In this document: positions 3 through 15,293 of the stretch, piece after piece
Layout of the letters: every line of letters begins with the position of its first letter
Position numbering within the stretch: position 1 is the first letter of the stretch
Origin: a virus
Virus record (IMG/VR): IMGVR_UViG_3300025767_002389
Location: 1-22,004 of that record
Length of the DNA stretch: 22,004 bases
Direction: 5' to 3' (one strand)
Program-made: the position numbers and the translations under genes
Notes under the pieces: model-generated
What the model was told of the DNA's origin: nothing
Database searches by the model: none
The model's input: the letters and a program-made list of their open reading frames with translations, nothing else

Positions 3-3000
3 CTCGGTAAATTAAGATTTGAGTATCGTGGCGAGTGGACGAATGCTACTACGTACGAGGCTAATGACGTTGTCAAGTATGGCGGCAATCTTTACGTTTA
101 CAAATATGGTTTAAAAACTTCAGGCAATATTCCACAAACGTCTTCCCTGTATTGGGACCTGATGGTAGAAGGCTTTAAGTTTGAAGGTTCGTATGACTCT
201 GACACAACATATAATGTTGGCGACGGATTCTCATATGGTGGTATTGTTTATATCACAACAGCCAATAGTATAAGCGGAACACGTCCACCAAATGCTGGAT
301 ATTCTACGTTTACAGATGGTCTTCAATACGAAGGCGAATGGAGTAATTCAACTCAATACCAAAAGTCAGATATTGTTAAGTATGGCCCAAAGTCATATAT
401 TGCTTCTGCTGATCCTACAATTGGCTCGAATCCGTTAACAGGATCATGGCAAATATTTTCAGATGGTATATCTTTCGATAGCGCATATGATAGTACTGTT
501 ACATATAAGCCAGGTCAGGTTACAAAATGGGGCAATAATTCTTATATCGCAAATCAAGATATAGGTGCCGGAGATTCTCCAAATGTAGCTGGGAACTGGA
601 CTCAAATTATTGAAGGACAAAGTTGGAAAGATTCATATAATAGTTTAACAAAATATTATGAACATGATATTGTAACCTTTGCGACACGTACATACAAATC
701 TAAGCGTGATAACTTATTAAATGTTAGACCAGATACTAATACTGCTCTGTGGCAACTTATAGGTACTGGACTTAAGGCTGAAGGTATTTGGTCAGGCAGT
801 ACAGTATATTATGTGGATCAATTAGCAACATATGGTAATACGACATATAGAGCTAAAGCTGAAACAATTAACCAAGTTCCAGATGTGACGCCAGCTGTAT
901 GGGAAGAAATTGCTTCAGGTGTTGATACAAGAGGAAGCTGGGGTGGAGGAACACTATATTATAAAGGTGATATTATCGTTAACGGTAATAAATCTTATAT
1001 AAAAAATGCTTCATCGCACACTTCTAATACAACCTTTGATTCAGATAATTCTAATTGGACAACGTTAACCGACGGCGTTAGATATAGAGCTGGCGGATAC
1101 GATAGTTCTACTAGTTATTTAATTAATGACATCGTACAATATAGTACAAGCTCTTATATAGCTTTAGAGAATTTTAACGCTTCTGGAAACTTTGGTAGTG
1201 AACTAACCGCAGGCAAATGGGAATTACTCGCTGCTGGTGGCGGTTCGGTTCTTCCTTCTCTTGCGGTAAGCGATAAAGGTAAATTTTTAGGATCTACAGA
1301 TGGCGTTGCTTATAGCTGGCAATATCCTGGCAAAGCTGATAAAGTTTACTATGTTGCTGAAAACGGTAACGCAGATTCTGATTTGGGTCAAACGGTCGAT
1401 ACAGCTTGGGGATCTTTAAAATTCGCATTAGAAAATGTGACTGGTCCAGCTACTATCTTTGTTAAAGACGGTAGATATCGCGAAAACCTACCTATGACAA
1501 TTCCTGCTAACATTACGCTTAAGGGTGATGGTCAAAGGAACACTGAAATTCATCCAGCTGCTGGTGACTCAAGCAAAACTATGTTCTTTGTAAATAGTGG
1601 AGTTCTTGTTGAAGAACTTAAATTTACAGGACTTACTGGGTTTGCGCTAGATGCAACTAATCCTCATGATATTGAAGAAGCTACAATTGGTGGAGTTTAC
1701 TTTAGACTTGACCCAACTGCAGTTATTCTAAAATCTCCATATATTAAAGAATCAACAGCATTCTCAACCGGTGGCGTTGGAGCTGTTATTGATGGAGGGC
1801 TTAACAATAATCCAGCAAACCAAGGTTCTATGGTTTTCCACACATTTACGCAAGTACATAACGGTGGTGCTGGTTTCCATGTTCGCAAAAACGGTAAATC
1901 AGAAATCGTTTCTTGCTTTACATATTATTGTGATTTTGGCCTTGTAACATCTAGCGGTGGTAAGATTAGAGCTCTTAACTGTAATAACTCTTATGGTACT
2001 TACGGCGCGGTTGCTGAAGGATTTGATTCCAACGAAGTTGCAATTACAGGTAAAATCAGAGGTACTTCACTTCATTACGACGGTAATACGATAACTGGTG
2101 GCACTGAATTCAATGTAGGATCTAAGATTGTCGGTGAGACAAGCAATGAAAAAATAGATAGAGCGACTCGTGCTGCTAACGTTTCCTTCCATTCTCCCAA
2201 TCACGGCCTAACAACTGGTCAAAAAATATCTATTACAGGTTTGACACCTTCAACATGGGCGTCATTGTTCACGGCTGATAGTTATTGGGTTACGGCTACA
2301 GACTCTTCTAACTTTATACCTTATATCGACTCAGCAAGATCTACTGGTATTGATACACAAAATGCTGGCGGTAGAAACACTGTTACTACAACAATTACAG
2401 ATATTGCTCGTCAAAACCCAGTAAGATTAACTGTTACGACTGCGGCAAACGCTGATTCATATGCTCCTCACTATATACAAAGTGTTGGTGGTATGACTCA
2501 AATGAATAACCGCTGGGTCACGTTTGATAGTGGAGCTGCTACATCTGCATCTACTCTTTTTGCAAGAGAAGCTGAAAACGTTAAGATTCAAGTTAAAAAC
2601 GCTGGTAGCCAAACAGAATTGGCTGGTACGACTGGAGGGTCGACCCTGACATTTGGTTCTGCTAACCCAGCAATTACTCTTTATAGAGGTTCAAGATATA
2701 GATTTATTGGTGACTCGGCAAGCGCCGTAACAAAATCAGTTGCCGGTGGACGTTTCTATCTTTCTACTTCTACTAGCTGGGATTCAAGTAACTTTACAGA
2801 TGAATACACAACTGGAATTCTAAATAGTAGAAACAATCTTGATGGCGATTCAACTCTTGATAGTACAGTAGACGGACTACTCTTTGAAGTTGGACCTACA
2901 ACTCCAACAACGTTGTATTATAACTTTGACAGTGCTACTTCTGCTTCTCAAATGAGAGGGCAAATTAACATTGTTAATCCTCCGTTCATTGATGCTCAAT

Positions 3001-4130
3001 CATATAGCGTTTATACTTCTGGTGGTCAAGCTAGACTGATGGATTCAGGCGACTACTTCGACTCTGCTCATTGGAATGCTGAAGCTCCTACGGCTGACGT
3101 TATTAATACGCAACCTACTCAAGATAAAATCTACGTAGAAAATATCACTTTCCCAGGATTTGCCGGCGGTGAGCTTATTAGTCAAGGCGCAGTAAATGCA
3201 AGTCTTGCTAACTCAAACTTTTATCGAGGCCAATATGGCTATATTGTGTCAATTGATACTTTAACTGGACAGCCAAAACCTGGTCAATCTATATCGTTTG
3301 CGGGTGATGCTGATAGTGCGGGACAGGCAAGAGCCTATGTTGTTTCTAGCGTAACTGGATATGATTCAAGCACAGGGCAAGCGACATTAACATTATCGCA
3401 GCAAAAGCTTGAAACAAATGCTTCAACCGATGATACTAACGTAACAGTTAGAACTAATTATTCTCAGGTAAGACTTACAGGTCACGACTTCTTGAGTGTT
3501 GGTACTGGTGGAGTGACTACAACCAATTATCCTGGAACTCCAACGCAAGCTGCTTCTCAAGGAAACGAAGTTATTGAGACTGCCCCTGGTCGAGTTTACT
3601 TTATCTCGACTGACCAAGATGGTAACTTTAGAGTTGGTAACTACTTTAGAATTGACCAGGCTACTGGACGAGCAACCCTAGATGCATCTGCGTTTGACCT
3701 TTCTGGTTTGACTAGCTTGAGACTTGGTTCGATTGGTGCTCAGATTGGTGAATCAATTAACGAGTTCTCATCAGATGCAACGTTATCTGGTAACTCAAAC
3801 CTTGCTGTTCCAACAGAAAAATCAACTAAAGGTTATGTTGATCAAGCGCTAAAAGATATTACTTTATCATATGGATCTGGTGATTATGACTCTGCAAATA
3901 CGGTGTTTTACGAATGGGATTCTTCAAGAGATTCAGGCGGTAGACGCATTAAGGGTTATACTATAGGTAAGATAACATATTCAGATATTATTTACGATTC
4001 ATATACTGACGAGATAAATACATACAAAGAATACACTACCCTCGGGCATGGATATAGCGTAACAAGAAACGTTTCTATATTCTATAATAGCGATGGCTCA
4101 ATTGAAAGAATTCAGACTGCAGAGGTTTAA
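3..4130 (+). CDS. Large repeat-containing phage structural protein (tail-fibre/appendage-like), 5' end outside window
   Basis: The frame is open from the left edge (reading from base 3) to a TAA at 4128-4130, so the true start lies outside and at least 1375 residues are visible; the first internal ATG at 162 is not the start. Three regions can be seen. The N-terminal part has eight tandem ~50-residue modules (to about base 1241) with the pattern Y..GD.V.Y....Y.A....W....G. A middle part beginning near base 1340 (VYYVAENGNADSDLG, then AWGSLKFAL, DGRYREN, ITLKGDG) looks like a right-handed beta-helix. Downstream is an NHGLTTGQKISITG segment. The C-terminal third has RVYFISTDQDGNFRVGNYF and AVPTEKSTKGYVDQAL, which I associate with large virion proteins of marine T4-like phages. 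It is followed 9 bases later by the Cys-rich adhesin-like gene. A structural role is well supported; the exact location (fibre, baseplate or whisker) is inferred. Confidence 0.8.
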   Translation, partial: LGKLRFEYRGEWTNATTYEANDVVKYGGNLYVYKYGLKTSGNIPQTSSLYWDLMVEGFKFEGSYDSDTTYNVGDGFSYGGIVYITTANSISGTRPPNAGYSTFTDGLQYEGEWSNSTQYQKSDIVKYGPKSYIASADPTIGSNPLTGSWQIFSDGISFDSAYDSTVTYKPGQVTKWGNNSYIANQDIGAGDSPNVAGNWTQIIEGQSWKDSYNSLTKYYEHDIVTFATRTYKSKRDNLLNVRPDTNTALWQLIGTGLKAEGIWSGSTVYYVDQLATYGNTTYRAKAETINQVPDVTPAVWEEIASGVDTRGSWGGGTLYYKGDIIVNGNKSYIKNASSHTSNTTFDSDNSNWTTLTDGVRYRAGGYDSSTSYLINDIVQYSTSSYIALENFNASGNFGSELTAGKWELLAAGGGSVLPSLAVSDKGKFLGSTDGVAYSWQYPGKADKVYYVAENGNADSDLGQTVDTAWGSLKFALENVTGPATIFVKDGRYRENLPMTIPANITLKGDGQRNTEIHPAAGDSSKTMFFVNSGVLVEELKFTGLTGFALDATNPHDIEEATIGGVYFRLDPTAVILKSPYIKESTAFSTGGVGAVIDGGLNNNPANQGSMVFHTFTQVHNGGAGFHVRKNGKSEIVSCFTYYCDFGLVTSSGGKIRALNCNNSYGTYGAVAEGFDSNEVAITGKIRGTSLHYDGNTITGGTEFNVGSKIVGETSNEKIDRATRAANVSFHSPNHGLTTGQKISITGLTPSTWASLFTADSYWVTATDSSNFIPYIDSARSTGIDTQNAGGRNTVTTTITDIARQNPVRLTVTTAANADSYAPHYIQSVGGMTQMNNRWVTFDSGAATSASTLFAREAENVKIQVKNAGSQTELAGTTGGSTLTFGSANPAITLYRGSRYRFIGDSASAVTKSVAGGRFYLSTSTSWDSSNFTDEYTTGILNSRNNLDGDSTLDSTVDGLLFEVGPTTPTTLYYNFDSATSASQMRGQINIVNPPFIDAQSYSVYTSGGQARLMDSGDYFDSAHWNAEAPTADVINTQPTQDKIYVENITFPGFAGGELISQGAVNASLANSNFYRGQYGYIVSIDTLTGQPKPGQSISFAGDADSAGQARAYVVSSVTGYDSSTGQATLTLSQQKLETNASTDDTNVTVRTNYSQVRLTGHDFLSVGTGGVTTTNYPGTPTQAASQGNEVIETAPGRVYFISTDQDGNFRVGNYFRIDQATGRATLDASAFDLSGLTSLRLGSIGAQIGESINEFSSDATLSGNSNLAVPTEKSTKGYVDQALKDITLSYGSGDYDSANTVFYEWDSSRDSGGRRIKGYTIGKITYSDIIYDSYTDEINTYKEYTTLGHGYSVTRNVSIFYNSDGSIERIQTAEV
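12..1241 (+). repeat. Eight tandem ~50-residue protein modules in the structural protein
   Basis: Counting from the ATG at 162, modules begin near residues 5, 54, 103, 153, 204, 254 and 306, with one more upstream from about base 12. Spacing is 49-52 residues (about 150 bases). Each starts with an aromatic/hydrophobic strand (FKFEG, LQYEG, ISFDS, LKAEG, VRYRA), has a central D-I/V-V..G...Y segment, and ends in W...(S/T/A)DG. The repeats are clear in protein but have diverged in DNA, so this is an old duplication. The pattern resembles small carbohydrate-binding or fibre-shaft modules; binding is not shown by the sequence. Confidence 0.8.
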
Positions 4131-4139: not shown

Positions 4140-5363
4140 ATGACAATAGATGTAATAGCATATAACGCTCTGGCTAGATCAATTGATGCCAAAAAAGATC
4201 AAATAGCAGAACAAAGAAAACTAAGAGATTCCTCTAATGATTATGCAGATAATACAGTTAACGTGCTATCTAGCTATCAACAATTAATCGATAGTGCTGA
4301 CAGTTTTATTGGATGTTATACTCCTGTTGTTGCGGGTGGATATGATATTGAATGTTTCCATACAAAATATCAATCTTGTATGACTCCTCCAAGCGCTTGT
4401 GGGTTTAGCGGAATTAAAATGTTATGTGATTATATTGGCGGTGCAGTGACCGGCGAAATAAGAATGCAAGACTGTGGACAGATTGGTTCCCATGCACAAT
4501 GCGGTGTATCTTGTGCCTGGACAGCTCCAGCTGGAGTAAGCAGAGTTCAAGTGTTTGTACAAGCTCCAGGTGGTCCTTCTCTTATGGCTAACTGTTGTGG
4601 TGGATATGGCTATGGGCCAAATGGTGGCTTCTCGTCGACAGTTTACTGTATGAGCGCAGGCGATACTTTACAGTTATGCTCAGGTTGCTCTTGTTGCTGT
4701 TTTCCATACTGCTGTGGATACACGCTTTATAGGTCCTGTAATTCTTACGTATGTACCTGCATCGGTGGTGTTGCTGGTTGTATTATTGCTTGTTCTCCTC
4801 ACCCAAGTGGATGTTGTGAAACACAAGTAAGAAACACATACGGCGGCAGTGGAGGACTTGTATGTTATAACTTCTGGCATGGTTCACAGTGTTTATGTGG
4901 AGGATTTAGTCCTTGTCATAGCGGGGATCAAGGTAACTGTTGGTTTGATTGTTACGGACCATGGAATTGCGGAACCAATTGTCAATCAGGAAGAGATGCA
5001 TGCGGCCATCAATATGATTACTGTAGTCCTATTGTAACTGATGGATCGGCTGGTAATATTAATAACATAGTTCCTGGTTCATGCTTCTCATCACCTGGTT
5101 GGTGGCATTGGTGGGCACGTAGCGAAAATTGCCACTGGCATTGTACGCCTGGTACTGCATATGGACTTCAAGTTCAAACCTGTGACGCGCAATGCTGTTC
5201 ATGTACTGGTAATAACGTTTGTTGTGGTAGAAATAAATCTTGGGATCAAGGCTATTTTAGAGTTCAAGGACAAGGCGGAGCGTGGGGCATGCAGTGCGGT
5301 GGAAACACTAGTAACTGTTCTGATATGGGACGTTCTGGCGGCGTCTTTATTGCCTGGTGCTAG
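4140..5363 (+). CDS. Cysteine- and glycine-rich adhesin-like protein, paralog 1
   Basis: The 407-residue protein contains 47 cysteines (about 11.5 %), all after residue 58, many as CC, CxC or CCC. Residues 1-58 lack Cys and look helical and charged (DAKKDQIAEQRKL), possibly an attachment or trimerisation segment. From about residue 120 there is a WTAPAGVSRVQVFVQAPGG strand, then CCGGYGYGPNGGF, and the C-terminus ends GRSGGVFIAWC. This order (W..PAGV, G-rich core, GG.V.I at the end) recalls glycine-rich domains of phage tail-tip adhesins, here with cysteine in many positions. There is no signal peptide. The start has AAGGA upstream. It is a clear paralog of 6232-7383 and sits directly behind the large structural protein, so a receptor-binding tip role is likely but inferred. 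Metal binding is an alternative explanation for the cysteines. Confidence 0.72.
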   Translation: MTIDVIAYNALARSIDAKKDQIAEQRKLRDSSNDYADNTVNVLSSYQQLIDSADSFIGCYTPVVAGGYDIECFHTKYQSCMTPPSACGFSGIKMLCDYIGGAVTGEIRMQDCGQIGSHAQCGVSCAWTAPAGVSRVQVFVQAPGGPSLMANCCGGYGYGPNGGFSSTVYCMSAGDTLQLCSGCSCCCFPYCCGYTLYRSCNSYVCTCIGGVAGCIIACSPHPSGCCETQVRNTYGGSGGLVCYNFWHGSQCLCGGFSPCHSGDQGNCWFDCYGPWNCGTNCQSGRDACGHQYDYCSPIVTDGSAGNINNIVPGSCFSSPGWWHWWARSENCHWHCTPGTAYGLQVQTCDAQCCSCTGNNVCCGRNKSWDQGYFRVQGQGGAWGMQCGGNTSNCSDMGRSGGVFIAWC

Positions 5364-5371
5364 TATAAATA
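5364..5371 (+). promoter_or_regulatory. T4-type late promoter (TATAAATA)
   Basis: An exact match to the T4 late promoter octamer TATAAATA begins immediately after the stop of the first Cys-rich gene, about 30 bases before the ATG at 5401. The spacing leaves room for a short leader with the GGAG ribosome site at about 5384. Confidence 0.7.
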
Positions 5372-5400
5372 AGATTAGAATTTAACGGAGAAATTAAAAT

Positions 5401-6222
5401 ATGGCAACCCATACATTCACATTTAAGGTTCCAGATCTACAGCACGTGAATTCGTGGGAGGATGGGAGAACCGCTACTGGAACACTAAAAATGGACGGTG
5501 ATTCAGTAAAACTTTGGTTTATTCAAGGCGACATGGATCCGGCTCCAACGCTATTTGCTACTACATTTAATGAACAGCACGATAGTATTGGTCAATTCCC
5601 GCCTGTAACTCAAGCAGAATTAACAGAAGTAACTCTTAGCCCAGACACAGATAAAAATAAAATGTTTTTATGGTTAGCTAAGTACGAATCTGTTGGAGAA
5701 CTATTTGATAGCGACGAATGGCCAGAAGAAGTTAGAGTAGATACTCAAATCCCAAATAGGCCTGACGGTGTAACATGGAAAAAACTTTCTGATGCTTCAT
5801 GGTGTCCAAGATGGGCTTGGAAATTATGTATGAAAGACGGTCAAGTAGACGCGATGTTTAAAGCTGATGAAAACTTAACAAATTCAGATATGAACGCATA
5901 TAAGCGTAAACATAATGTTAAGTTTTATAGAGACAATTACGATTTAGGACCTGCTGCAGATTCTGATGCAGACGCATTTATGGCGGCTTGCGATCAATTT
6001 ATTGCTGATAATGCTGATGTTTATGCTTGGATGCTGACTCCAGAGGCTTTAGTACATGAAACTGGATTGGCTCCAAGAATTCCATTGTCTGTGGCTACTG
6101 CAATTAACAATATTCCTGAAGGTGATGGAATGGAATTTGCATATACACCTTGGGAAAATACCGCGCAAGCCCAAAAATTTATTGATTATCCAGACATCAT
6201 ATTTCACAGCGACTTAGACTAG
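5401..6222 (+). CDS. Unrecognised protein between two Cys-rich paralogs
   Basis: The 273-residue protein has no motif I can name. It starts MATHTFTFKVPDL with GGAG upstream. The first 100 residues look beta-rich; the middle is tryptophan-rich (WKKLSDASWCPRWAWKLC, about residues 125-142); the C-terminal 100 residues look helical and acidic, ending in FHSDLD. There is no signal peptide or transmembrane segment, and only a few cysteines, unlike its neighbours. It has its own late promoter and lies between two adhesin-like genes. A tail component or an assembly helper for the adhesins, in the way T4-type gp38 or Tfa proteins help fibres, would fit the position, but nothing in the sequence proves it. 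Confidence 0.75.
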   Translation: MATHTFTFKVPDLQHVNSWEDGRTATGTLKMDGDSVKLWFIQGDMDPAPTLFATTFNEQHDSIGQFPPVTQAELTEVTLSPDTDKNKMFLWLAKYESVGELFDSDEWPEEVRVDTQIPNRPDGVTWKKLSDASWCPRWAWKLCMKDGQVDAMFKADENLTNSDMNAYKRKHNVKFYRDNYDLGPAADSDADAFMAACDQFIADNADVYAWMLTPEALVHETGLAPRIPLSVATAINNIPEGDGMEFAYTPWENTAQAQKFIDYPDIIFHSDLD

Positions 6223-6231
6223 GAGTTATAA

Positions 6232-7383
6232 ATGCCTGATATTTTATATGCAGCAGCTTTAGATAAACAACTTTATCAGGACACTCAACTGTCTGTTGCG
6301 CAAGCACAAAAATCTGCTGCTGATTCAAGAAAATCTGGATGTCAATCCCTTGTGGCGCAATGCGCAACATGTTTAGCTTGTTGCCAATGTTGTGTTACGG
6401 TAGTTAAAACTCCTACAGCAAAAACTACTGAGATATGCATTCAACAATGCTTAGACCAATGCCCGATGTCTTGTACTGCTTGGGGACTTATTCCTGATAA
6501 ATGCGGTGCCACTGGTTGGTGTACATGGGATTTTGGTAACACAGAAACATATGTTATGTGTGGACCTTACAGAGGAAGATGTGGGACTTCCTGTAACTGG
6601 ACAGTCCCTGCTGGTGTTTGTTGTGTGCAATTTGATTTTTGGAGTCCTGGGGCATATGGCGGTACCGGATATTGCTGTGGTCACTCTGTATGGGGTGCAA
6701 ATGGTTCTTTTGGATCTATAACAATGTGTGTAACTCCGGGTGATATATATTGCATGTGCGCTGGTTGCGGACTGTGTTGCTCGGTGGGTCCCAGCTATCA
6801 CGATAATGGATTTAGAAGTGGTACTACTTCGATCGTTGGCAATGGGTTGGCGAATGTATGTGTTGATGGGCCAACGCCGCACTCACTAAAATATTTTAAT
6901 TGGGATAAGGGTATGCCCACGTGGTGCCGATCATTTAATTGCGGTGGCGGAAATGGTCAATGTCACTGTGGAGGTTTTTGGCAGTGCGCAGATAACAATT
7001 GTGCTACTTGTGGTGTTATCTGTGGTGGGGCCAATGATAGTATGCCGAACGGCAGGGTTTGCTTCGCAAAATCCCATTATTTTAAAGCCAGAGGTTCGGG
7101 CGGTGGATGTTATTGTAAAGATACTAACAACTATGGTTGGTACCGAGCAATCGGCGTTCCTCGTTTTCCTGGTGATGCTGACACTAACGGCCAATTTTGC
7201 AAATATGCAACTTCAAGCACATGTAATGGCTGTGAGTGGGGTGGTGGGATTTGTATGACTAATATTCCATGTATTCCTGGTATGGGAGCAAGCCCAAGTC
7301 ATATTATGGGTAGTTGTACAAACGCGTATGGCGGCTACCCTAGAGGCGGTGCTGTACGATTAGTATTTAAGTGTCCAATATAA
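6232..7383 (+). CDS. Cysteine- and glycine-rich adhesin-like protein, paralog 2
   Basis: The 383-residue protein has 45 cysteines (about 11.7 %). It shares the architecture of 4140-5363: CGTSCNWTVPAGVCCVQF matches CGVSCAWTAPAGVSRVQV, CCGHSVWGANGSF matches CCGGYGYGPNGGF, CMCAGCGLCC matches LCSGCSCCC, CHCGGFWQC matches CLCGGFSPC, and both end in a GG.V/A strand. The short N-terminal helix (about residues 8-34) is Cys-free and Ala/Gln/Ser-rich, followed by a Cys cluster (residues 37-55) that paralog 1 lacks. AGGAG lies 5 bases before the ATG. Overall similarity is moderate, so the two have diverged, perhaps for different receptors. Adhesin function is inferred from position and domain pattern. 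Confidence 0.72.
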   Translation: MPDILYAAALDKQLYQDTQLSVAQAQKSAADSRKSGCQSLVAQCATCLACCQCCVTVVKTPTAKTTEICIQQCLDQCPMSCTAWGLIPDKCGATGWCTWDFGNTETYVMCGPYRGRCGTSCNWTVPAGVCCVQFDFWSPGAYGGTGYCCGHSVWGANGSFGSITMCVTPGDIYCMCAGCGLCCSVGPSYHDNGFRSGTTSIVGNGLANVCVDGPTPHSLKYFNWDKGMPTWCRSFNCGGGNGQCHCGGFWQCADNNCATCGVICGGANDSMPNGRVCFAKSHYFKARGSGGGCYCKDTNNYGWYRAIGVPRFPGDADTNGQFCKYATSSTCNGCEWGGGICMTNIPCIPGMGASPSHIMGSCTNAYGGYPRGGAVRLVFKCPI

Positions 7384-7449: not shown

Positions 7450-8367
7450 ATGGATAAAGCCATCTTTATTAATGGTGGCGCAGGTCGTGTCATCTGCGCC
7501 ATCCCTGCGATAGAAAAACTCGCAAAAAACAATCCCGGAACAATTGTAGTATCAGAAGCATGGGGAGAATTATTTCTCGCTAGTCCCGTGCTTCGCGATA
7601 AATCTTTTATGCCACATACAAAAGGCCTTTTTGAAAATTACATTAAAGATCGTGAATGTATTTCGGTAGAACCTTATAGAATAAAAGAATATTACAATCA
7701 AGAATGCAATCTAATGACGGCATTTGATATAGAAATCAATAACGGTGACGGTAAGGATTTAGAACTAAATTTTGATTTATCTAAGCAAGTACAAGTTACA
7801 GCTTATAATTTTGTTGAAGAAGCTAAACAAAATTTAAACAAAGAAAAGGCTGTTTTATTCCAACCTTGGGGGCAAGGAGCAAAACAAGAAGGAAGATTTA
7901 TAATTGATTCTTCTGGAAGAAGTTTTGAATTGGTTGATGTTTTAGCTATTATGGAAGAGCTATCTAAAGAAGCGGTAGTTATTTTAATGTCAACATTTAA
8001 TATACCTACAGAAAAAAATATCCCATATGTCTGGACCGATCGATTCGATTTGTTACAATGGATGGGAGTAACTAATGCTGTTGACCACGTATTAGCGTGT
8101 GATTCTGTATCGCAGCATTTCGCCAACGCGCTTAAAAAGCCAGCCACTGTAGTTATTGGCGCTACTTTTCCAGAAAATATATCTTATCCTAATAATCCAA
8201 ATTTTAAAATTTTTGATTTAGGAAAAGATAAAAGAATTTATTCTCCTATTCGTATCGTGCATGAACCAGCATATGATTTAAATAACGAAGGTTTGATGCT
8301 TATGGAAGAAGCAAAAAGAAACGAAATAGTAAATTATGTAAAAGAGGAATTAAATAAAAATGAGTAG
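7450..8367 (+). CDS. Glycosyltransferase family 9 / heptosyltransferase-like protein
   Basis: The 305-residue protein has the outline of GT9 (ADP-heptose:LPS heptosyltransferase) enzymes: an N-terminal Gly-rich loop GGAGRVICAIPAIEKL (residues 9-24) where the family has a G.GD.....P....L segment; VLFQPWGQG near residue 136 at the start of the second Rossmann lobe; and CDSVSQHFANALKKPATVVIGAT near residues 216-238, corresponding to the family's D....H.A.A...P.V..FG nucleotide-sugar site. The length is slightly below the usual 320-350. It overlaps the carbamoyltransferase by 8 bases, so the two are probably translationally coupled. With the heptose genes nearby, ADP-heptose is the likely donor; the acceptor is unknown. 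The family assignment is fairly secure, the substrate is inference. Confidence 0.68.
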   Translation: MDKAIFINGGAGRVICAIPAIEKLAKNNPGTIVVSEAWGELFLASPVLRDKSFMPHTKGLFENYIKDRECISVEPYRIKEYYNQECNLMTAFDIEINNGDGKDLELNFDLSKQVQVTAYNFVEEAKQNLNKEKAVLFQPWGQGAKQEGRFIIDSSGRSFELVDVLAIMEELSKEAVVILMSTFNIPTEKNIPYVWTDRFDLLQWMGVTNAVDHVLACDSVSQHFANALKKPATVVIGATFPENISYPNNPNFKIFDLGKDKRIYSPIRIVHEPAYDLNNEGLMLMEEAKRNEIVNYVKEELNKNE

Positions 8368-10195
8368 TGGTTATATTTTAGGAATTACTCGAGGCCATAA
8401 TGGAGGGGCATGTCTAGTAAAAGATGGAGAAATCGTCTTTGCTATTGAAGAAGAAAGATTAACTAGATTGAAATACGATGGAGGCCCTTTAGCTTCTATT
8501 ATATTAGCTAGAGAACATATTCCTAAAGGGGAAAAATTAGATTATCTAGTTATCGCGCATACACAAAGGCTAGAGAACGCGGGTGTTATCGATTATAGCG
8601 GCGATGACATGTACACTGGCCTGTGCAGAAAAATAGGCCTATTAGAAGATCACCCCGCGAATAATAACGATAAAATTATTGATTTAGCTGACATTCATCA
8701 CAAACTTCATGCTGCATGTGCGTTTTATAGGTCTGGCTTTGATAAGGCTATAGCTGTTATTATTGACGGTGCCGGGACATTTTCGACTCTACAATCAGAC
8801 ACCTTTGTAAATGGCGAACCAGAGATTACCTTTGAAGTAGAATCTATTATTGAATGCGAGTATCCTAGCGAGTTTACAAATCTATATAAACACCATGGTT
8901 TAAGAACTGCTTGCAAATCTTCAACCGGGATGATTGAGAATGATCTTAAATTTTCGTATAAGCAGCCAAAAGAAAATTTCACTATTAGCGTAACTGATAA
9001 AGCTGGAATCGTCAAATGCTATGAATCTATAACAGAGTATTGTGGGTTTCAAGCTATTGAAGCAGGTAAAACTATGGGACTATTCCCATATGGTAAACCT
9101 GACGACAGACTTCCTCCGTTGTTTGATTATAATTGTAATTTAATTTTAAGCAACAGGAACGCGGTTGCTCCGCAGTATCCGCAAACTGGATATTTTAATG
9201 CTGAGCTTTACGAAGGATATAAGTTTAGCGAAGTAGAAAGAGAAGAACTAAGTAAACTAGAAAATAGAAAAAACGCTGCCTATTGGGTACAAACGGAAAC
9301 TCAAAAAGCAGCGGCGGCATATATTAGAAAAGCTTACGAACAAACAGGGCAAAAGAATATCGTTGTTTCTGGTGGCTATGGTCTAAATTGTGTAGCTAAT
9401 TATTTTTATAGAGAAGAATTAAAAGATCTTATTGACGAAGGCGTAAATATTTACTGTGAGCCTATTTCTTCTGATGCTGGTACTGCTATCGGCGCTGCGT
9501 TAATTGTATCTAACTATCTTTCGAAAAATACCACGCCGATGAAAGACGACTCATTATATCTTGGACCACAATACAACTACTCGAAAAATACTTTAAATGA
9601 TTTATGTGAAACACATTTAAATCAGGAATTTAAAGTAGACAACAACATTGAACCTGAAGATGTTGCTGATATTCTTTCAAATAGAAATATTGTAACTATG
9701 TTCCAAGGAAGATCTGAAAACGGTCCTAGAGCTTTAGGTAATAGAAGTATTCTTTACGATCCATCTGATCCAGATGGAAAAGACTTTGTCAATACTGTAA
9801 AAAATAGAGAATTTTTTAGACCTTTTGCCGGCTCAGTACTAGAAGAAGATGCACACGACTGGTTCGATTTAAAAGGACTAGACGCATCTCCTCATATGAT
9901 GTACGCTGTTAACGTAAAAGAAGATAAGCAGGATAAAATTAAATCTATCACTCACGTAGATGGAACTTGTAGAATTCAAACTGTAAATAGAGATCAGAAT
10001 CCACATTACTATGATCTAATTAAAGCCTTTAAGGAGAAGACTAATATACCAATGGTTTTCAACACTAGCTTTAATTTAGGCGGAGAACCATTGGTTGAAA
10101 CTTTAGAAGATGCTATTAAAACATTAGCTAAAAGTGAAATTAACTATATGTATTTGCCAGAGCTAAAACAGCTATTGACTATTACAACTAATTAA
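8360..10195 (+). CDS. Full-length carbamoyltransferase (NodU/CmcH/TobZ family)
   Basis: The 611 residues match the usual length of the family, which moves a carbamoyl group from carbamoyl phosphate to a hydroxyl through a carbamoyl-adenylate. The N-terminal Kae1-like domain shows LGITRGHNGGACLVKDGEI (7-25), EEERLTR (30-36), HHKLHAACAFY (113-123, metal-site histidines), IIDGAG (134-139) and SSDAGTAIGAA near 370. The C-terminal YrdC-like domain begins about 399 (LYLGPQYN) and holds GRSENGPRALGNRSIL near 450, NREFFRPFAGSV and FNTSFNLGGEPLV. The start overlaps the GT9-like gene, with GAGG upstream. It meets the leftward epimerase tail-to-tail with stop codons sharing bases. The likely substrate is the sugar transferred by its neighbour: 7-O-carbamoyl heptose is known from Pseudomonas LPS core. 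That link is inference. Confidence 0.92.
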   Translation: MSSGYILGITRGHNGGACLVKDGEIVFAIEEERLTRLKYDGGPLASIILAREHIPKGEKLDYLVIAHTQRLENAGVIDYSGDDMYTGLCRKIGLLEDHPANNNDKIIDLADIHHKLHAACAFYRSGFDKAIAVIIDGAGTFSTLQSDTFVNGEPEITFEVESIIECEYPSEFTNLYKHHGLRTACKSSTGMIENDLKFSYKQPKENFTISVTDKAGIVKCYESITEYCGFQAIEAGKTMGLFPYGKPDDRLPPLFDYNCNLILSNRNAVAPQYPQTGYFNAELYEGYKFSEVEREELSKLENRKNAAYWVQTETQKAAAAYIRKAYEQTGQKNIVVSGGYGLNCVANYFYREELKDLIDEGVNIYCEPISSDAGTAIGAALIVSNYLSKNTTPMKDDSLYLGPQYNYSKNTLNDLCETHLNQEFKVDNNIEPEDVADILSNRNIVTMFQGRSENGPRALGNRSILYDPSDPDGKDFVNTVKNREFFRPFAGSVLEEDAHDWFDLKGLDASPHMMYAVNVKEDKQDKIKSITHVDGTCRIQTVNRDQNPHYYDLIKAFKEKTNIPMVFNTSFNLGGEPLVETLEDAIKTLAKSEINYMYLPELKQLLTITTN

Positions 10196-10989
10196 AAAGG
10201 ATAGCGAAACTCGTATTGTCCAATGTACGATTCGAGTTTTGCGTTATCAGACATCGTAAAATCCTGATATTGATTTTTTAAAGTATCAGGCATAGGAATT
10301 TCTATAATTTCCTCTTTATTCATGTGCTCAGCTAATTCCATAAATGAGCGCGGAGTTCCTGTGCCAACATTTACGATGTCTGATTTTTCTATATCAAAAA
10401 ATAATTCATGAATTTTACACACGTCATCTACGTGAATAAAATCTCTAAAAATATTTTTACTTCCTTCAAACACCTTTACATAATTAAACTCTTTCCATTT
10501 AGTAATTAGTGAAGCGCTATCTCCTTTATGTTCATCGTGTGGACCCATGACATTGAAATATCTAAATCCTTGCACTTTAATAGGAAGTTTATCTATGCTT
10601 TTTAGCACTAGTCTATCAAAAAGGTATTTCGACCAAGCGTAGGGATTAGTTGGCATCTTTGTATCGTCTTCTTTAAAAGGATGCTTTGAATGTGCAGTTC
10701 CATAAACCGATGCTGAAGAAGCGTATTGTAGATCAACTTTATTTTCACAGCACGCTAGGAGCAACTTATAGCTAAAGTCATAATTATGATCCATAATTTT
10801 ATTAACATCAGTTTCTGTAGTACTTGATATTGCGCCTAAATGAATAACTAAATCCTGATCTGTTACATCTGGAAATCCACCAACTGTATCATTCCATTCG
10901 AATCCAGTAACCTTGTGACCCTTTGACTCTAAATATGGTTTCATGTTTTTTCCAATAAAGCCTTTGTGGCCGGTCATTAAAATTTTCAT
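10192..10989 (-). CDS. hldD: NAD-dependent sugar epimerase, ADP-glycero-manno-heptose 6-epimerase-like (HldD/RfaD)
   Basis: This is a short-chain (extended SDR) epimerase of 265 residues. It has GHKGFIG (7-13) for NAD binding, HLGAIS (50-55), SSASVYG (91-97) and the catalytic pair Y117/K121 in NPYAWSK. FRYFNVMGPHDEHKGDSAS is very close to the HldD signature (FRYFNVYGP...HKG.MAS), and FIHVDDV matches the later SDR motif. HldD interconverts ADP-D-glycero- and ADP-L-glycero-beta-D-manno-heptose. It is shorter than E. coli HldD (310). The ATG at 10989 is preferred over an upstream TTG at 11016 because AAAGGAA lies just before it and the Rossmann motif begins at once. The ATG overlaps the kinase stop as ATGA, so the two are coupled. 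The 3' end overlaps the stop of the facing carbamoyltransferase. Other nucleotide-sugar epimerases are less likely given the HKG motif and the neighbours. Confidence 0.85.
   Translation of the reverse strand: MKILMTGHKGFIGKNMKPYLESKGHKVTGFEWNDTVGGFPDVTDQDLVIHLGAISSTTETDVNKIMDHNYDFSYKLLLACCENKVDLQYASSASVYGTAHSKHPFKEDDTKMPTNPYAWSKYLFDRLVLKSIDKLPIKVQGFRYFNVMGPHDEHKGDSASLITKWKEFNYVKVFEGSKNIFRDFIHVDDVCKIHELFFDIEKSDIVNVGTGTPRSFMELAEHMNKEEIIEIPMPDTLKNQYQDFTMSDNAKLESYIGQYEFRYPF
10194..10248 (-). terminator. Possible terminator hairpin at the end of the leftward hldE1-hldD unit
   Basis: An inverted repeat with arms at 10204-10213 and 10233-10242 (GCGAAACTCG / CGAGTTTTGC), extended by GATA/TATC at 10200-10203 and 10245-10248, has a 19-base loop. 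Read leftward it is followed by a T-run (10198-10194) that runs into the epimerase stop codon. It lies in the last codons of the epimerase because the convergent genes leave no gap. The leftward stem has an A-C mismatch and a bulge, so strength is uncertain. Read rightward the stem is better paired (G-U) but lacks a T-run. Confidence 0.35.
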
Positions 10990-11858
10990 GCTAATTCCTT
11001 TATTGATGTAATCCAATCATCTGGACTAATTGTGTACGTACCGTTTTTTGAAACAGCAATACCAGCTAAGGTATTTGCCGCTCGAGTTATTCCTGAAATG
11101 CCCATTCCTGCTTCTATTCCTAATGCAATACCAGCCATAAATGTATCACCTGCTCCAGTGACATCTGATACTTCTTCAACTTTAGAAGGATAATGTTCTA
11201 TAGAGTCTCCTATTAACAAAACTCCATCTTCACTTAAAGTAATTACTAAATATTCCAATTCTAAATGATCTCTAGTCAGCTGAGCTTTTGCCATTAATTC
11301 TTTTGGAGTATTACATTTACCTACGTAATCTTCAAATTCTTTTCTATTAGGTTTTAATAAATAGGCACCTTTATAATTATCTAAAGATAACTTGGGATCT
11401 ACTAAAACTTTTCCTTTACAATTTTTTATTAATTTTTGTGGATTTTTAATAGTACCTTTATTATAATCGGATAAAACTAATATTCCGTTTTTTTGAATAT
11501 TCCATTTTTCCAAAATAGAATCTTCTAGTTTGGTATCTTGTATATATTCTTCATCATCAAGCCTAGACATATATCTGCCATTAGATATAACTCTAGTCTT
11601 AAGTGGAATCTTATCTGTTTTTATAAAATAAAAATTTTGAGAAGGCGGAAACATATAAGAGTTGTTAGTGTCATAATAACATCCTAATTTTGCTTCTGTA
11701 TATGTTTGCACTATATTATTATAAACATTACCACATCCTCCCCATCGCTTTTCGCGAGAGGTTAAATCTACAATGGGAACGGGTGCTTCTGGGGAAATTC
11801 GAGTTGTAGTACCATAGATGTACTCATCTATAATCATATCACCTGTTACATAAATCAT
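10986..11858 (-). CDS. hldE1: D-glycero-beta-D-manno-heptose-7-phosphate kinase (HldE N-terminal domain / RfaE1-like)
   Basis: This 290-residue PfkB-family sugar kinase matches the kinase half of HldE. Motifs in order: YVTGDMIIDEYIYG (3-16), RISPEAPVPIV (20-30, diagnostic for HldE), GGCGNVYNNI (40-49), LSDYNKGTI (129-137), VLVDPK (151-156), LLKPNRKEFE (167-176), LVITLSEDG (204-212) and DVTGAGDTF (232-240) with catalytic D238. The family phosphorylates C1 of D,D-heptose-7-phosphate. The nucleotidyltransferase half of HldE is absent here and is a separate gene at 14895-15293. The start is only 30 bases from the divergent heme oxygenase and has only a weak AGG upstream. It is coupled to the epimerase by an ATGA overlap. 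Confidence 0.88.
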   Translation of the reverse strand: MIYVTGDMIIDEYIYGTTTRISPEAPVPIVDLTSREKRWGGCGNVYNNIVQTYTEAKLGCYYDTNNSYMFPPSQNFYFIKTDKIPLKTRVISNGRYMSRLDDEEYIQDTKLEDSILEKWNIQKNGILVLSDYNKGTIKNPQKLIKNCKGKVLVDPKLSLDNYKGAYLLKPNRKEFEDYVGKCNTPKELMAKAQLTRDHLELEYLVITLSEDGVLLIGDSIEHYPSKVEEVSDVTGAGDTFMAGIALGIEAGMGISGITRAANTLAGIAVSKNGTYTISPDDWITSIKELA

Positions 11859-11860
11859 TA

Positions 11861-11868
11861 TATAAATA
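11861..11868 (+). promoter_or_regulatory. T4-type late promoter (TATAAATA) before the heme oxygenase
   Basis: An exact TATAAATA lies in the 30-base gap between the divergent kinase and heme oxygenase genes, 20 bases before the ATG at 11889. A GGAG ribosome site lies at about 11880. The spacing matches the other late elements in this window, so the bilin genes appear to be expressed with the virion genes. Confidence 0.65.
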
Positions 11869-11888
11869 CCTATTTCAATGGAGTTGTT

Positions 11889-12422
11889 ATGGCGTTACGT
11901 GATCTCGTTAAAGACGTACATACTGAAGCAGAAGAAAGCCCGTTTGCAAAGCTGCTCATGTCAGGTGCTATATCTAAGCATCAGTACGCTAACTATTTAT
12001 ATCAGCAAGAAATGATATATTTTAGGTTAGAACAAAGGGCAGATAAACTTGGCATATTAGACGATATACCTGATATTAAAAGACATCATAAAATTGTAGA
12101 AGACTTTCATTCGTTAGAAGTAAATGATAGTTTTAAACTATATCCCGTTGTAAAAGAATATTGCGATTATGTAGAAGGCATTGATGAATACCAATGCTGG
12201 GCACATATGTACGTTCGGCACTTTGGAGATATGTATGGAGGCAATATGATTTCGAAACGTATTCCCTTTGGTTCGCATAACATGTATAAATTTGAAGATA
12301 AAAAAGGCCTTATAGAATATGTTAGATCTAAGCTAGATGATGATATGTACAAAGAAGCACAAAGCGTTTTTAAATATGCAACAGCGCTGTTTAAGGAGCT
12401 AGAAAAAGAATATGATCTTTGA
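11889..12422 (+). CDS. ho1: Heme oxygenase (biliverdin-producing)
   Basis: The 177-residue all-helical protein matches heme oxygenase. The proximal heme ligand is probably H11 in DVHTEAEESPF, and the distal glycine-rich helix is YVRHFGDMYGGNMISKRIPFG (about 109-129, corresponding to the family's GDLSGG). It also has YLYQQEMIYFRLE. It opens heme to biliverdin IX-alpha, CO and iron using ferredoxin electrons. It is shorter than cyanobacterial HO1 (about 240), mainly at the C-terminus. It overlaps the bilin reductase by 11 bases, which supports a two-step pigment pathway. Heme oxygenase genes are known as auxiliary metabolic genes in marine T4-like phages. Confidence 0.87.
   Translation: MALRDLVKDVHTEAEESPFAKLLMSGAISKHQYANYLYQQEMIYFRLEQRADKLGILDDIPDIKRHHKIVEDFHSLEVNDSFKLYPVVKEYCDYVEGIDEYQCWAHMYVRHFGDMYGGNMISKRIPFGSHNMYKFEDKKGLIEYVRSKLDDDMYKEAQSVFKYATALFKELEKEYDL
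11994..12001 (-). promoter_or_regulatory. Possible leftward late promoter octamer inside the heme oxygenase gene
   Basis: TATTTATA on the + strand is an exact TATAAATA on the - strand, 135 bases upstream of the leftward kinase start at 11858. It lies within Asn-Tyr-Leu-Tyr codons of the heme oxygenase, so it could be chance in AT-rich DNA. If used, it would give a late transcript of the kinase-epimerase pair, antisense to the start of the heme oxygenase. Confidence 0.25.
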
Positions 12423-13062
12423 AAAACTTATAGATGCAAGTGAAAGAATGCGAGCAATAGTTGAAAACCTCGCTACTACGAAACACACTCACAATTTCCC
12501 CTGGCCTGCAGATACGTATTTGTCTCCTGACATTTGGCGAAGAGCCGATTTAGATATTATCGATGCACGAGAAGATCGTAAACTTTGGATGATGCATTTG
12601 TGTGTATATCCTCATATAAATGATCCTGCTCCAATATTTGGATTTGATGTTATTGCAGGACCAAATAAAGTAACTGGGGCCTTTCACGACTTTAGTCCTA
12701 TAGATCCTAATAGCCATATATTAGCACAATTCAAAGAGAATGTACACAGTTTTATTCCATCAAAGAAAAGAGAACTACCTGACTGGGCTAAAGCAATTTT
12801 TAGTGGATCAATGGTTTCAGCCGGAAACGTTAGAGATCCTGACGAACTACAAGAGCTGTTAGATCTTGCGGTTAATAACTTAGACTACTTCATCCATAAT
12901 ATAGGTCTTAGCACTGACAACGACTATACCGATAAACATAACTGGTATGCAATAAACCAAAAGAAAAACCCACACACTCCGAGAGTCATGGAGAGCATGG
13001 GCGTAGATCCTGGTGTCGTTAGGAAATATATAGACGAGTGTTTATTTCCTGAAATTACTTAA
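12412..13062 (+). CDS. Ferredoxin-dependent bilin reductase (PcyA/PebS/PcyX family)
   Basis: The 216-residue protein fits the FDBR fold. VYPHINDPAPIFGFDVIAG (66-84) corresponds to the strand entering the central sheet; GAFHDFSPI (89-97) carries the conserved Asp (D93); and YAINQKKNPHTPRVMESMG followed by YIDECLFPEI at the end matches the family's Y...Q..N..T.R.L...G and Y....LF motifs. It reduces biliverdin, made by the gene it overlaps, to phycocyanobilin or phycoerythrobilin. PebS is known from cyanophages, and PcyX, which also makes phycoerythrobilin, from uncultured ocean phages thought to infect non-cyanobacterial hosts. The present protein is likely one of these, but I cannot decide which by reading. 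AAGGAG lies about 13 bases before the ATG. The 3' end overlaps the facing HAD gene by 8 bases. Confidence 0.85.
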   Translation: MIFEKLIDASERMRAIVENLATTKHTHNFPWPADTYLSPDIWRRADLDIIDAREDRKLWMMHLCVYPHINDPAPIFGFDVIAGPNKVTGAFHDFSPIDPNSHILAQFKENVHSFIPSKKRELPDWAKAIFSGSMVSAGNVRDPDELQELLDLAVNNLDYFIHNIGLSTDNDYTDKHNWYAINQKKNPHTPRVMESMGVDPGVVRKYIDECLFPEIT

Positions 13063-13654
13063 GATTCTTTTCAAATTCTGAAAGTGATTTAAATATTCGT
13101 GTTTTCTTTTTTATCTTTTGATTAGCAAAACTATTAAGTTTCTTAATAGTTTCTTCTGTTGGATTAATTAGAGCGAACCTAGATCCTACTTTGAATGCAG
13201 CTTTTGCATCTGCAATAGTATGTCCCACATACCATCCGTTTTTAAATTTTAAATGAGGATGTTCATCTTCGCAGCGCTTAAACATACCAGCGCTGGGCTT
13301 TACATATGGATCTGCCTTTTCTGTTCCAACTGAATAAAATATTCCCTCAATAGAAAATATTCCTGCTTGGCCAAAATCTTCCATCATTTTTAAATTAGCA
13401 GCATTTACTTCAGACTCAAGTCTACCTTTTTCATCCATGATTAAAACGACTTTATATCCTTTTAATCTTAGGCTTCGTATAGACTCAAGAGCTCCTGGCA
13501 AATACGAGTAATCGTTATCAGTAAATACATTTTTTCTTTCTAATCCAATAGTTGTTTTTGGAAAACTCTTCGGCCAATCTTGTTGTATATTCTGATTCTG
13601 ATTTACTTTATTAGGATCAAAATCTGGCACTTCCATTGATGCTAAATCAACCAT
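13055..13654 (-). CDS. GmhB-like HAD protein with substituted catalytic residues
   Basis: The 199 residues align by eye with GmhB (D-glycero-D-manno-heptose-1,7-bisphosphate phosphatase): TIGLERKNVF (35-44) lies over the family's IFLDRDG.IN, YLPGALESIRSLRLKGYKVVLI (51-72) over the PG...AL..L...GY....T segment, YVKPSAGMF (117-125) over RKP.PGM, and YVGHTIADAKAA (142-153) over VGD...D..A. Three of four HAD motifs are altered: nucleophile D to E39, second D to K41, motif II T/S to M73, and motif IV D to H145. K119 and D149 remain. The Zn-binding cysteine loop of GmhB is missing. It is last in the leftward operon, overlapping the gene before it by 8 bases. It is probably a pseudo-enzyme or a repurposed binding protein rather than a working phosphatase. 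Confidence 0.65.
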   Translation of the reverse strand: MVDLASMEVPDFDPNKVNQNQNIQQDWPKSFPKTTIGLERKNVFTDNDYSYLPGALESIRSLRLKGYKVVLIMDEKGRLESEVNAANLKMMEDFGQAGIFSIEGIFYSVGTEKADPYVKPSAGMFKRCEDEHPHLKFKNGWYVGHTIADAKAAFKVGSRFALINPTEETIKKLNSFANQKIKKKTRIFKSLSEFEKNLK

Positions 13655-14552
13655 TATTTAAATACGCTAATACTGCGCCCTCTGCTGAACCACTATCGCT
13701 TGGATTTGGTGGTATGTATATATTATCAAATATTTTGCTTGCAATGTTTGGTACAGATTTGTTAAATGCGACTCCACCGCTTAACACAATATTGCGGCTA
13801 TCTGTAATTTCTTTTGCATGAATTAAAACTTTAGTTACTAAACTCTCAAAAATTGTACGCGTGGCGCTGGCTATTTCTTTTTTACCGCTATCCCACCACA
13901 TTTGTCTAGCTCCACGGTGAAAGTTTACTCTAAATTTAGGTAGTGGATCCCATTGTTTTATTATATCATTTTCCATTTGCGTTACTAATTGTGAAAATGG
14001 TGTATATGATCTGGACAGTTGTTCAAACGCAGCTTCATCTTGTTGCGGCTTTAATCCGATGCGATCTGTCATAGCTGAATAGAATAGTCCGATGCTATGA
14101 GGATATTTAGTTGACTTTATTTTTTTAAGTTTGCCATTTCTGGCTTTCCATATAGATGTACAATCAAATTCTCCAATACTATCAAGAACCACAATAGTGG
14201 CATCTTTAAATCCACTATTGTAAAAAGCTGCAGCATGAGATTCATGATGGCCTACGTATTTCCATTTACAGTTTATATTAAGATCTCGTAAATATCTTTT
14301 AATGTTATTTCTTTTAAAAGGATGTTTTTGTCCTGCTATAAATTGTCTAATAGATTTAAGATATGGATTTTCATACCAGATAACTAAATCAGGTTTGCCG
14401 TTTTTCTTGGCTTCATCTATACATTCTGGCGTGTGTCGAGAGCCTTTACCTGAAATAGTATTTACAAGTTTAAATCTATTTCCTAAGTTATTGTCTTTAA
14501 AAATAGCTACAGACCAATCATGACCGTTCTTTGACATACCCCATATTATCAT
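13647..14552 (-). CDS. Carbamoyltransferase-family protein with N-terminal (Kae1-like) domain only
   Basis: The 301 residues match only the first half of the NodU/CmcH family. Visible motifs are IIWGMSKNGHDWSVAIF (2-18), VGHHESHAAAFYNSGF (100-115, metal-site histidines H102/H103/H106), IVVLDSIGEFD (120-130), LSGGVAFN near 259 and NPSDSGSAEGAV near the end (D286). The C-terminal YrdC-like domain with the FRPFA and FNTSFN motifs, present in the paralog at 8360-10195, is absent. The following sequence is a different intact gene in another frame, so this is not a simple frameshift. Metal and ATP-site residues are kept. It starts at an ATGA overlap with the cupin stop. It may cooperate with the full-length paralog or act on an activated carbamoyl donor; this is inferred. 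The start at 14552 has no good ribosome site, consistent with coupling. Confidence 0.8.
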   Translation of the reverse strand: MIIWGMSKNGHDWSVAIFKDNNLGNRFKLVNTISGKGSRHTPECIDEAKKNGKPDLVIWYENPYLKSIRQFIAGQKHPFKRNNIKRYLRDLNINCKWKYVGHHESHAAAFYNSGFKDATIVVLDSIGEFDCTSIWKARNGKLKKIKSTKYPHSIGLFYSAMTDRIGLKPQQDEAAFEQLSRSYTPFSQLVTQMENDIIKQWDPLPKFRVNFHRGARQMWWDSGKKEIASATRTIFESLVTKVLIHAKEITDSRNIVLSGGVAFNKSVPNIASKIFDNIYIPPNPSDSGSAEGAVLAYLNNG

Positions 14553-14908
14553 TTTTGACTATTGCCTTTGGCAACCCTATAATTATCTTCTACTGAATCT
14601 GGAGTAGAAACTTCTATAATAGTTCCTTTTTTAACGCAGATTACTTGGTGTGGTGTTAAAGGTTTTATTCTTACCGAATCTCCTGGATTTAACCTTTGTT
14701 TTTTAACGTCTGCACTTTCTGTTTCAATAGTAAGTAAATCAAAGACTCCTTCAAGAACAAAAAATGTTTCGTCCTTTAGCGCATGAAAATGCATTGAAAA
14801 CCTTGCAGCTTCATTAAATACTAATAATTTCCCTGTGTACTTATCGTTAGTAGCAAAGATATTTTCATGGCCCCAGCCTTTTTCGACAAAGCCTTCAAGT
14901 TGCGTCAT
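14549..14908 (-). CDS. Cupin protein, phosphomannose isomerase type II-like
   Basis: The 119-residue single cupin has a complete metal site: H40 and H42 in FSMHFHALKDETFF, E47, and H87 in PLTPHQV. KGWGHE near the N-terminus resembles the PWG of type II mannose-6-phosphate isomerase, and EVSTPDSVEDNYRV resembles that family's C-terminal EDD..R..D.YGR segment. The family catalyses aldose-ketose isomerisation of sugar phosphates. The ATG at 14908 is chosen over an upstream TTG at 14923 because AAAGGA sits just before it. It overlaps the nucleotidyltransferase upstream by 14 bases and the next gene by ATGA. It could supply the sugar-phosphate isomerase step otherwise missing from the heptose pathway, or make a different sugar. 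Confidence 0.72.
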   Translation of the reverse strand: MTQLEGFVEKGWGHENIFATNDKYTGKLLVFNEAARFSMHFHALKDETFFVLEGVFDLLTIETESADVKKQRLNPGDSVRIKPLTPHQVICVKKGTIIEVSTPDSVEDNYRVAKGNSQK

Positions 14909-15293
14909 TACGAATCCTTTCAATAAATTTAGTAGTAGAATACCCTATTGTATATGGTATAATTTTAACTCTAGCTAAATCGTTACCAACAACATTATCT
15001 GGAACATAATCACCGCCTTTTGTAATTATATCCGGTCTTATATATTTAATTAACTCATAAGGAGTTGGCTCATCAAAAATATAAACTCGATCGACAAATC
15101 TTAAACATTCTAATGCAAGTTTTCTGTCTTCTTCTTTATTTATTGGCCTATCTGAACCCTTTAGTTTGCGTATACTGCTGTCGGAGTTAATGCCTACAAT
15201 AAGTCTTTCTCCCCAAAAGGCAGATTCTTTTAGATATTCTAAATGGCCTCGATGCAATATATCAAAGCATCCGTTTGTAAATACTGTTTTCAT
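14895..15293 (-). CDS. hldE2: Heptose-1-phosphate adenylyltransferase (HldE C-terminal domain / RfaE2-like)
   Basis: The 132-residue cytidylyltransferase-fold protein matches the second half of HldE. It has TVFTNGCFDILHRGHLEYL with the nucleotide-binding HxGH, LIVGINSDSSIRKLKGSDRPI (the family has NSD.SV+.LKG..RP), ALECLRFVD, IRPDIITKGGDY (family P..LVKGGDY) and a C-terminal STTKFIERI. It joins AMP from ATP to heptose-1-phosphate. The ATG at 15293 directly precedes the domain; an in-frame ATG at 15311 adds MCYNNI but is upstream of the probable transcription start. It heads a four-gene leftward operon with overlapping genes. The kinase half is a separate gene in another operon. Confidence 0.88.
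   Translation of the reverse strand: MKTVFTNGCFDILHRGHLEYLKESAFWGERLIVGINSDSSIRKLKGSDRPINKEEDRKLALECLRFVDRVYIFDEPTPYELIKYIRPDIITKGGDYVPDNVVGNDLARVKIIPYTIGYSTTKFIERIRNDAT

Follow-up and report, generated by a model that had tools for sequence, protein, structure and literature searches.

Why two neighbouring genes of a virus should encode proteins with a cysteine (Cys) content of about one residue in ten, and what such proteins do, is the question raised by the locus described here. The locus lies in a stretch of 22,004 nucleotides (IMG/VR record IMGVR_UViG_3300025767_002389, positions 1 to 22,004; hereafter the window), which is a contig of a T4-like phage of the Kyanoviridae type. We propose that the two paralogous proteins, A and B, serve a marine T4-like phage as receptor-binding fibre tips (adhesins), with a probability of approximately 0.8. 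This proposal is based on homology, a conserved gene cassette, the predicted fold of B, a lack of intermediates with plain glycine-rich relatives, and the finding that other phages have such relatives in the corresponding place. The two genes enclose a third, as follows:

4140 to 5363, plus strand: Cys-rich protein A, receptor-binding-tip-like (407 residues, 47 Cys, 58 Gly; phrog_35878, E 1.4e-8; homologous to B and to PSSM2_304)
5401 to 6222, plus strand: middle protein, candidate assembly factor or chaperone of the tips (273 residues, 3 Cys; homologue likewise found between A and B)
6232 to 7383, plus strand: Cys-rich protein B, receptor-binding-tip-like (383 residues, 45 Cys, 56 Gly; phrog_35878, E 2.4e-9; phrog_4205, E 0.0014)

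The Cys counts and the paralogy of A and B had been reported in an earlier note made from the sequence of the window, and our analysis confirmed both. The other 19 open reading frames (ORFs) of the window contain 53 Cys in 6459 residues (0.8%), and at this background the binomial chance of the Cys count is approximately 1e-37 for either protein. The low average of the rest of the window thus excludes a chance origin of the Cys richness. BLASTP aligned A with B (E 2e-12, 43% identity over 70 residues), and by sequence the two are paralogues. The three motif blocks named in the earlier note are all present and aligned in both proteins (WTAPAGV/WTVPAGV, CCGGYGYGPNGGF/CCGHSVWGANGSF and CLCGGF/CHCGGF), which also have the start motif DVLxYxALxE in common. 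Both reading frames are open and begin with ATG, and a ribosome-binding-like sequence, taggag, is located upstream of B. The gene at 5401-6222, which falls inside the interval covered by that note and was not mentioned there, is unrelated to A and B and is a member of the same cassette.

The AlphaFold2 model of B, built from a 63-sequence alignment of the family, had a predicted local distance difference test score (pLDDT) of 76.4 and a predicted template modelling score (pTM) of 0.74. It consists of a long helix (residues 4-34), a short helix (63-76) and strands spanning residues 106-380, and two parts were distinguished:

6241 to 6333, plus strand: B residues 4-34, long N-terminal helix of the AlphaFold2 model, presumed trimeric shaft or docking helix
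6529 to 7380, plus strand: B residues 100-383, TNF-like beta-sandwich and distal-loop domain holding most of the Cys, as delimited by VIA-align to 7ypx_A

The top PDB match of the model in Foldseek was the fibre of cyanophage Pam3 (7ypx, E 9.2e-5), and VIA-align superposed the model on 7ypx_A with Z 12.3, a root-mean-square deviation of 3.8, 193 aligned residues and 17% identity. Next in rank came the Bxb1 tail tip (Z 10.8) and the glycine-rich (TG) domains of the receptors ALK and LTK (Z 7-9), clearly separated from the unrelated entries, which began at 4.4. The ALK/LTK domain likewise combines a TNF-like and a glycine-rich fold; it belongs to an animal receptor and has the fold alone in common with B. 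In Pam3 gp24 (PDB 7YPX/7YFW), a helical shaft and a TNF-like domain are combined with a glycine-rich tip, for which binding to the host receptor has been proposed; gp24 was detected in virions, and its chaperone gp25 was absent from them (PMC9608196). The model of B has the same domain order, namely helix, TNF-like sandwich and distal loop domain. Column conservation in the family peaks at approximately B residues 121-180 and in the C-terminal strand, and is lowest, with most insertions, at approximately residues 220-335. Such a pattern would be expected if a conserved stem bears variable, indel-rich distal loops, and it has been described for Pam3. Protein A presumably adopts the fold of B, to which it is homologous. 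The gp38 adhesin of Salmonella phage S16, which is structurally related to Pam3 gp24 (PMC9608196), also has a receptor-binding tip with a glycine-rich lattice; it differs in its attachment to gp37, its three-layer lattice and its middle domain, and it (PDB 6F45) was not among the matches listed for the B model by Foldseek and VIA-align.

Sequence profiles placed A and B in the same setting. The phrog_35878 profile was matched by A, by B and by all 63 members of the alignment. PHROG 35878 holds proteins of Prochlorococcus phage P-SSM2, and PHROG 4205 holds those of S-CAM3 and S-SSM7; the window pair belongs to this group as a distant member, with about 24-29% identity. Both PHROGs are annotated as “unknown function”, and in the open-licence literature we found no description of Cys-rich cyanophage fibres or of the A/B family, which bears out the earlier statement that no described family of this composition was known in T4-like tails. 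In profile comparison, the family matched the S-CAM3/S-SSM7 set with E 3.4e-27 and plain glycine-rich domains with a probability of 83.8% (E 8e-6). The likeness to the Pfam family Gly_rich_2 (PF21722) consists of a W-x-VP-x-GV start, a GxGGG loop, a PG-x-x-Y strand and a C-terminal G-x-V-x-I-x-Y strand; the difference is that glycine runs give way to Cys-containing loops in the window proteins. The curated cut-off of Gly_rich_2 (24.3 bits) was passed by S-CAM3 gp156 (33.9) and S-SSM7_116 (26.4), and 9 of the 63 family members matched at E <0.1. Single-protein searches of Pfam, NCBIfam and PADLOC with A, B and the middle protein returned nothing relevant, and the family profile, compared with the sequences of solved structures, gave coiled-coil matches to the N-terminal helix and nothing else. 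The earlier suggestion of a glycine-rich tip frame with Cys at many positions, in a T4-like tail, agrees with the Pam3 fold, with the Gly_rich_2 matches of relatives and with the tail-fibre gene next door.

The cassette to which the pair belongs is conserved in the order tail fibre, A, middle gene, B, glycosyltransferase, carbamoyltransferase, and its remaining members in the window are:

3 to 4130, plus strand: tail fibre protein, 5' end beyond the window, directly upstream of the A/B pair (phrog_9851, tail fiber, E 1.8e-209)
7450 to 8367, plus strand: glycosyltransferase-9-like protein (phrog_8954, E 1.1e-113; weak Pfam PF01075; PSSM2_307 at the equivalent place in P-SSM2)
8360 to 10195, plus strand: NolO-like carbamoyltransferase (PF16861, E 2.7e-61)

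In P-SSM2, the tail fibre gene is followed by small ORFs, PSSM2_304 (A), 305 (middle), 306 (B), 307 and the carbamoyltransferase gene; its A and B contain 36 Cys each, in 356 and 355 residues. The tail fibre protein of the window has homologues among the tail fibres of P-SSM2, S-CAM3, S-SSM7 and Mosig, and the carbamoyltransferase occupies the equivalent place in P-SSM2, S-SSM7, S-CAM1, S-CAM3 and Sf-FS3. Scanning IMG/VR with a profile yielded 52 loci. Exactly two Cys-rich ORFs were present in 50 loci, the P-SSM2 and AG-345-F15 records counted in, and the middle gene lay between A and B in every distinct two-gene locus. In S-SSM7, Sf-FS3, S-CAM3 and S-CAM1, genes of a related form are arranged as tandem triplets. 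In P-SSM2 and in about 50 IMG/VR contigs alike, the cassette of A, middle gene and B comes after a tail-fibre gene. Plain glycine-rich proteins (0-7 Cys) occupy the corresponding place behind the fibre gene in pelagiphage Mosig, Syn9, S-SM1 and S-TIM4. Profile searches did not find a Cys-rich homologue in S-SM1, S-PM2, Syn9 and S-TIM4, the checked phages for which published virion proteomes are mentioned (PMC3037559, PMC6224464).

In a second scan, which returned 301 matching stretches, 80 loci were retained. The cores drawn from all loci comprised 223 Cys-rich and five plain glycine-rich ones. No intermediates were observed: the plain cores contain about 1% Cys or less, the rich cores at least 5% and mostly 8-12%, and none falls between 2% and 5%. 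Both kinds are present in P-SSM2 and in two IMG/VR records, where the plain glycine-rich domains contain no more than 1% Cys (P-SSM2 L068, G004 L070 and G002 L071). This indicates that the Cys bias belongs to the protein family and not to the genome. The photosystem gene psbA was found in 6 of 14 records. One large T4-like record (G002, L046 locus, 197947 bases), which may be incomplete, carries the Cys-rich pair and no psbA. This suggests that cyanobacteria may not be the only hosts, and that phages infecting other organisms may carry the family as well. A tblastn search with A found no match in cultured phages, and one scan of genome contigs with one pattern found no bacterial source.

The middle proteins form one family by alignment, with phrog_9740 matched in 24 of 28 members. 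In profile searches, the middle protein was found in five of six records with Cys-rich genes and in neither of two without them. Homologues were present in P-SSM2, S-CAM3, S-SSM7 and two IMG/VR genomes; neither C48C1 nor Mosig, both devoid of Cys-rich genes, yielded one, nor was one detected in Sf-FS3 at E 0.1 or, by tblastn, in cultured phages. Because of its position and its co-occurrence with the Cys-rich genes, we consider the middle protein possibly to be a dedicated folding or assembly factor of the tips, by analogy with Pam3 gp25. As in Pam3 gp24/gp25, the tip gene adjoins a smaller gene; its product, the middle protein, is modelled at low confidence with N-terminal strands and a C-terminal helical hairpin, which recall gp25. 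Pam3 differs in that two paralogues share one middle gene here. A fold search with the middle-protein model gave middling helical matches and no PDB match above Z 6.

We suggest the following way in which the tips may work. The N-terminal helical shaft of A and B would trimerise and dock to the fibre or baseplate, and it would be followed by a TNF-like beta-sandwich and a distal loop bundle touching the host surface, as in the simplified Pam3 fibre gp24, with Cys at many loop and sandwich-rim positions. The middle protein would fold or assemble the tips, analogous to gp25. The tip would fold reduced in the cytoplasm, and after lysis into oxic seawater approximately 11 near-invariant Cys might form intra- or intersubunit disulfides that rigidify it. 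The virion location, trimeric state and receptor binding of A and B, like the role of the middle protein, are inferred.

Several results weigh against this proposal. Neither A nor B of the window matched Gly_rich_2. The Pam3 tip contains 39% glycine (PMC9608196), whereas A and B contain about 15% glycine and 12% Cys; for the distal half of the family, the figures are 16% and 10%. The middle protein was modelled with low confidence (pLDDT 58; N-terminal strands and a helical hairpin at 161-203), and its membership of the Mu U/lambda Tfa tail-fibre assembly family was rejected in a comparison by hhalign with an 8-sequence profile (probability 0.7%, E 0.087). Alternatively, A and B could be non-virion late proteins that are released at lysis and target the cell surface or rival phages. 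This would accord with the surface-sugar enzyme genes in the neighbourhood; however, the fold and domain order are those of a virion fibre, the position after the tail-fibre gene is fixed and is held by plain homologues elsewhere, and no secretion signal was noticed in the N-terminal helix. We regard this explanation as very improbable.

If A and B are fibre tips, the role of their Cys has to be explained. The earlier note had suggested oxidation and locking after lysis, or binding of metal. Among residue types in the 63-sequence alignment, Cys was second only to glycine in conservation, and His was the least conserved. Eleven Cys positions reach a conservation of 90% or more (B residues 117, 121, 148, 149, 176, 179, 182, 183, 210, 246 and 252). 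The Cys at B210 is invariant in all 223 Cys-rich cores, which is partly ascertainment, since one search pattern contained that motif; it is also invariant in the first 63 sequences, which are free of this bias. The quartet C117/C179/C182/C183 is absent together in four sequences from two groups (L055 B, L051 B, L022 A and L018 A). Joint change, on a tree inferred without the Cys information, was detected for Cys core columns 40 and 257 (p ~1e-7) and 40 and 123 (p 8e-7), the smallest p among 2355 control pairs being 3e-7. Cys spacing has no single strong period, and a fixed Gly-Cys repeat was rejected accordingly; CC, CxxC and CxxxC are mildly enriched, as are GxxC and GxxxC. A search for Erv1/ALR sulfhydryl oxidases found nothing in 14 phage records and nothing in the control genomes either, which leaves the negative uninformative.

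The role that we tentatively prefer, at a little under even odds, is partial disulfide formation after lysis, within or between subunits, among the near-invariant Cys, which would rigidify the tip. Three observations speak against this step: Cys pairs overall show no excess of joint change over control residues, with few pairs co-changing; Cys totals per sequence have no parity preference (even in 40, odd in 28); and where variable Cys columns lack Cys, lysine, arginine, glutamine, asparagine and glutamate are over-represented and glycine is under-represented, which suggests exposed positions. Since even totals are not favoured and the majority of variable Cys show no pairwise co-variation, a simple complete intrachain set of disulfides is unlikely, and the data disfavour the view that such pairing alone accounts for the Cys. 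The same three observations are consistent with a different explanation, in which the distal lattice, like that of Pam3, depends on main-chain hydrogen bonds and exposed Cys have drifted in with no common chemistry. This is improbable, because the conservation of Cys and the gap in Cys content argue for more than tolerance, and the low Cys content of plain domains in the same genomes excludes a genome-wide drift.

Metal-charged tips were also considered, in which Cys clusters such as C117, C179, C182 and C183 would bind Fe, Zn or Cu in the cytoplasm, either stiffening the tip or engaging metal-uptake receptors of the host (the “Trojan horse” iron idea). The joint loss of the quartet and the joint change of columns 40, 123 and 257 fit such sites, and folding in a reducing cytoplasm would favour thiolate-metal coordination. 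Iron is bound by T4 gp37 via HxH motifs, and this has been proposed for marine phages too (PMC11705849). However, no metal-protein match was obtained in Pfam or NCBIfam, there are no conserved His partners, most Cys vary singly, and the co-loss of the quartet is equally compatible with disulfide pairs. Coordination of soft metals by the tip Cys is thus rather doubtful, and free surface thiols or another role of the Cys appear unlikely, if a shade less so. Taken as sequence data, the pattern fits a small conserved structural set, as disulfides or metal sites, together with many individually variable exposed thiols.

The remainder of the window is consistent with its assignment. Head-closure, terminase and tail-sheath genes are located at 15.4-22 kilobases, and the best match of the terminase was that of Phage C48C1 (73%). 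A possible promoter lies within the cassette:

5364 to 5371, plus strand: TATAAATA, box resembling a T4-type late promoter, situated between A and the middle gene

TATAAATA is the late-promoter box of T4. Four of its five sites in the window (5364, 11861, 15331 and 19709) are in short gaps directly upstream of ORFs, and the total number is not above chance; the placement is suggestive of late expression only. The N-terminal part of the tail fibre (window positions 3-1200) carries repeated CBM_5_12 carbohydrate-binding modules in four stretches (Pfam, E 2.3e-10). A minus-strand surface-sugar cassette at 10192-15311 encodes an epimerase, a PfkB-type kinase, a cupin/isomerase-like protein, a cytidylyltransferase and a second, shorter carbamoyltransferase-like protein, and relatives of these sugar genes come after the Cys-rich cassette in P-SSM2 and S-CAM1. 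Genes for a heme oxygenase (PF01126, 11889-12422) and a ferredoxin-dependent bilin reductase (PF05996, 12412-13062) are adjacent, as in cyanophages; they are no proof of a cyanobacterial host, because pelagiphage Mosig is annotated with both beside its neck genes. Near tip genes, we also observed genes for 2-oxoglutarate-Fe(II) (2OG-Fe(II)) oxygenases and leprecan-like proteins (S-TIM4, S-SM1; L180, L181) and, in S-CAM3 (L064), a gene annotated as cysteine dioxygenase. The products of these neighbours might modify the tips.

The fold and the kind of protein described here are already known; the Cys-rich form, the pairing around one middle gene and the breadth among marine phages were not found described in the literature that we covered. 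If A and B are fibre tips, then the cultured cyanophages P-SSM2, S-SSM7 and S-CAM1/3 very likely depend for host recognition on proteins of roughly 25-40 Cys per chain, and Cys-laden tips made in a reducing cytoplasm would represent a chemistry undescribed, in the same literature, for phage adhesins. It is a doubtful idea that a large clade of marine phage tips has swapped the glycine lattice for thiol chemistry, metal-loaded or redox-switched in oxic seawater and active in attachment. The fibre-tip identity would provide named receptor-binding candidates in phages for which few host-recognition proteins have been assigned, and would allow direct tests, in cultured phages such as P-SSM2, of the redox or metal state of the tip.

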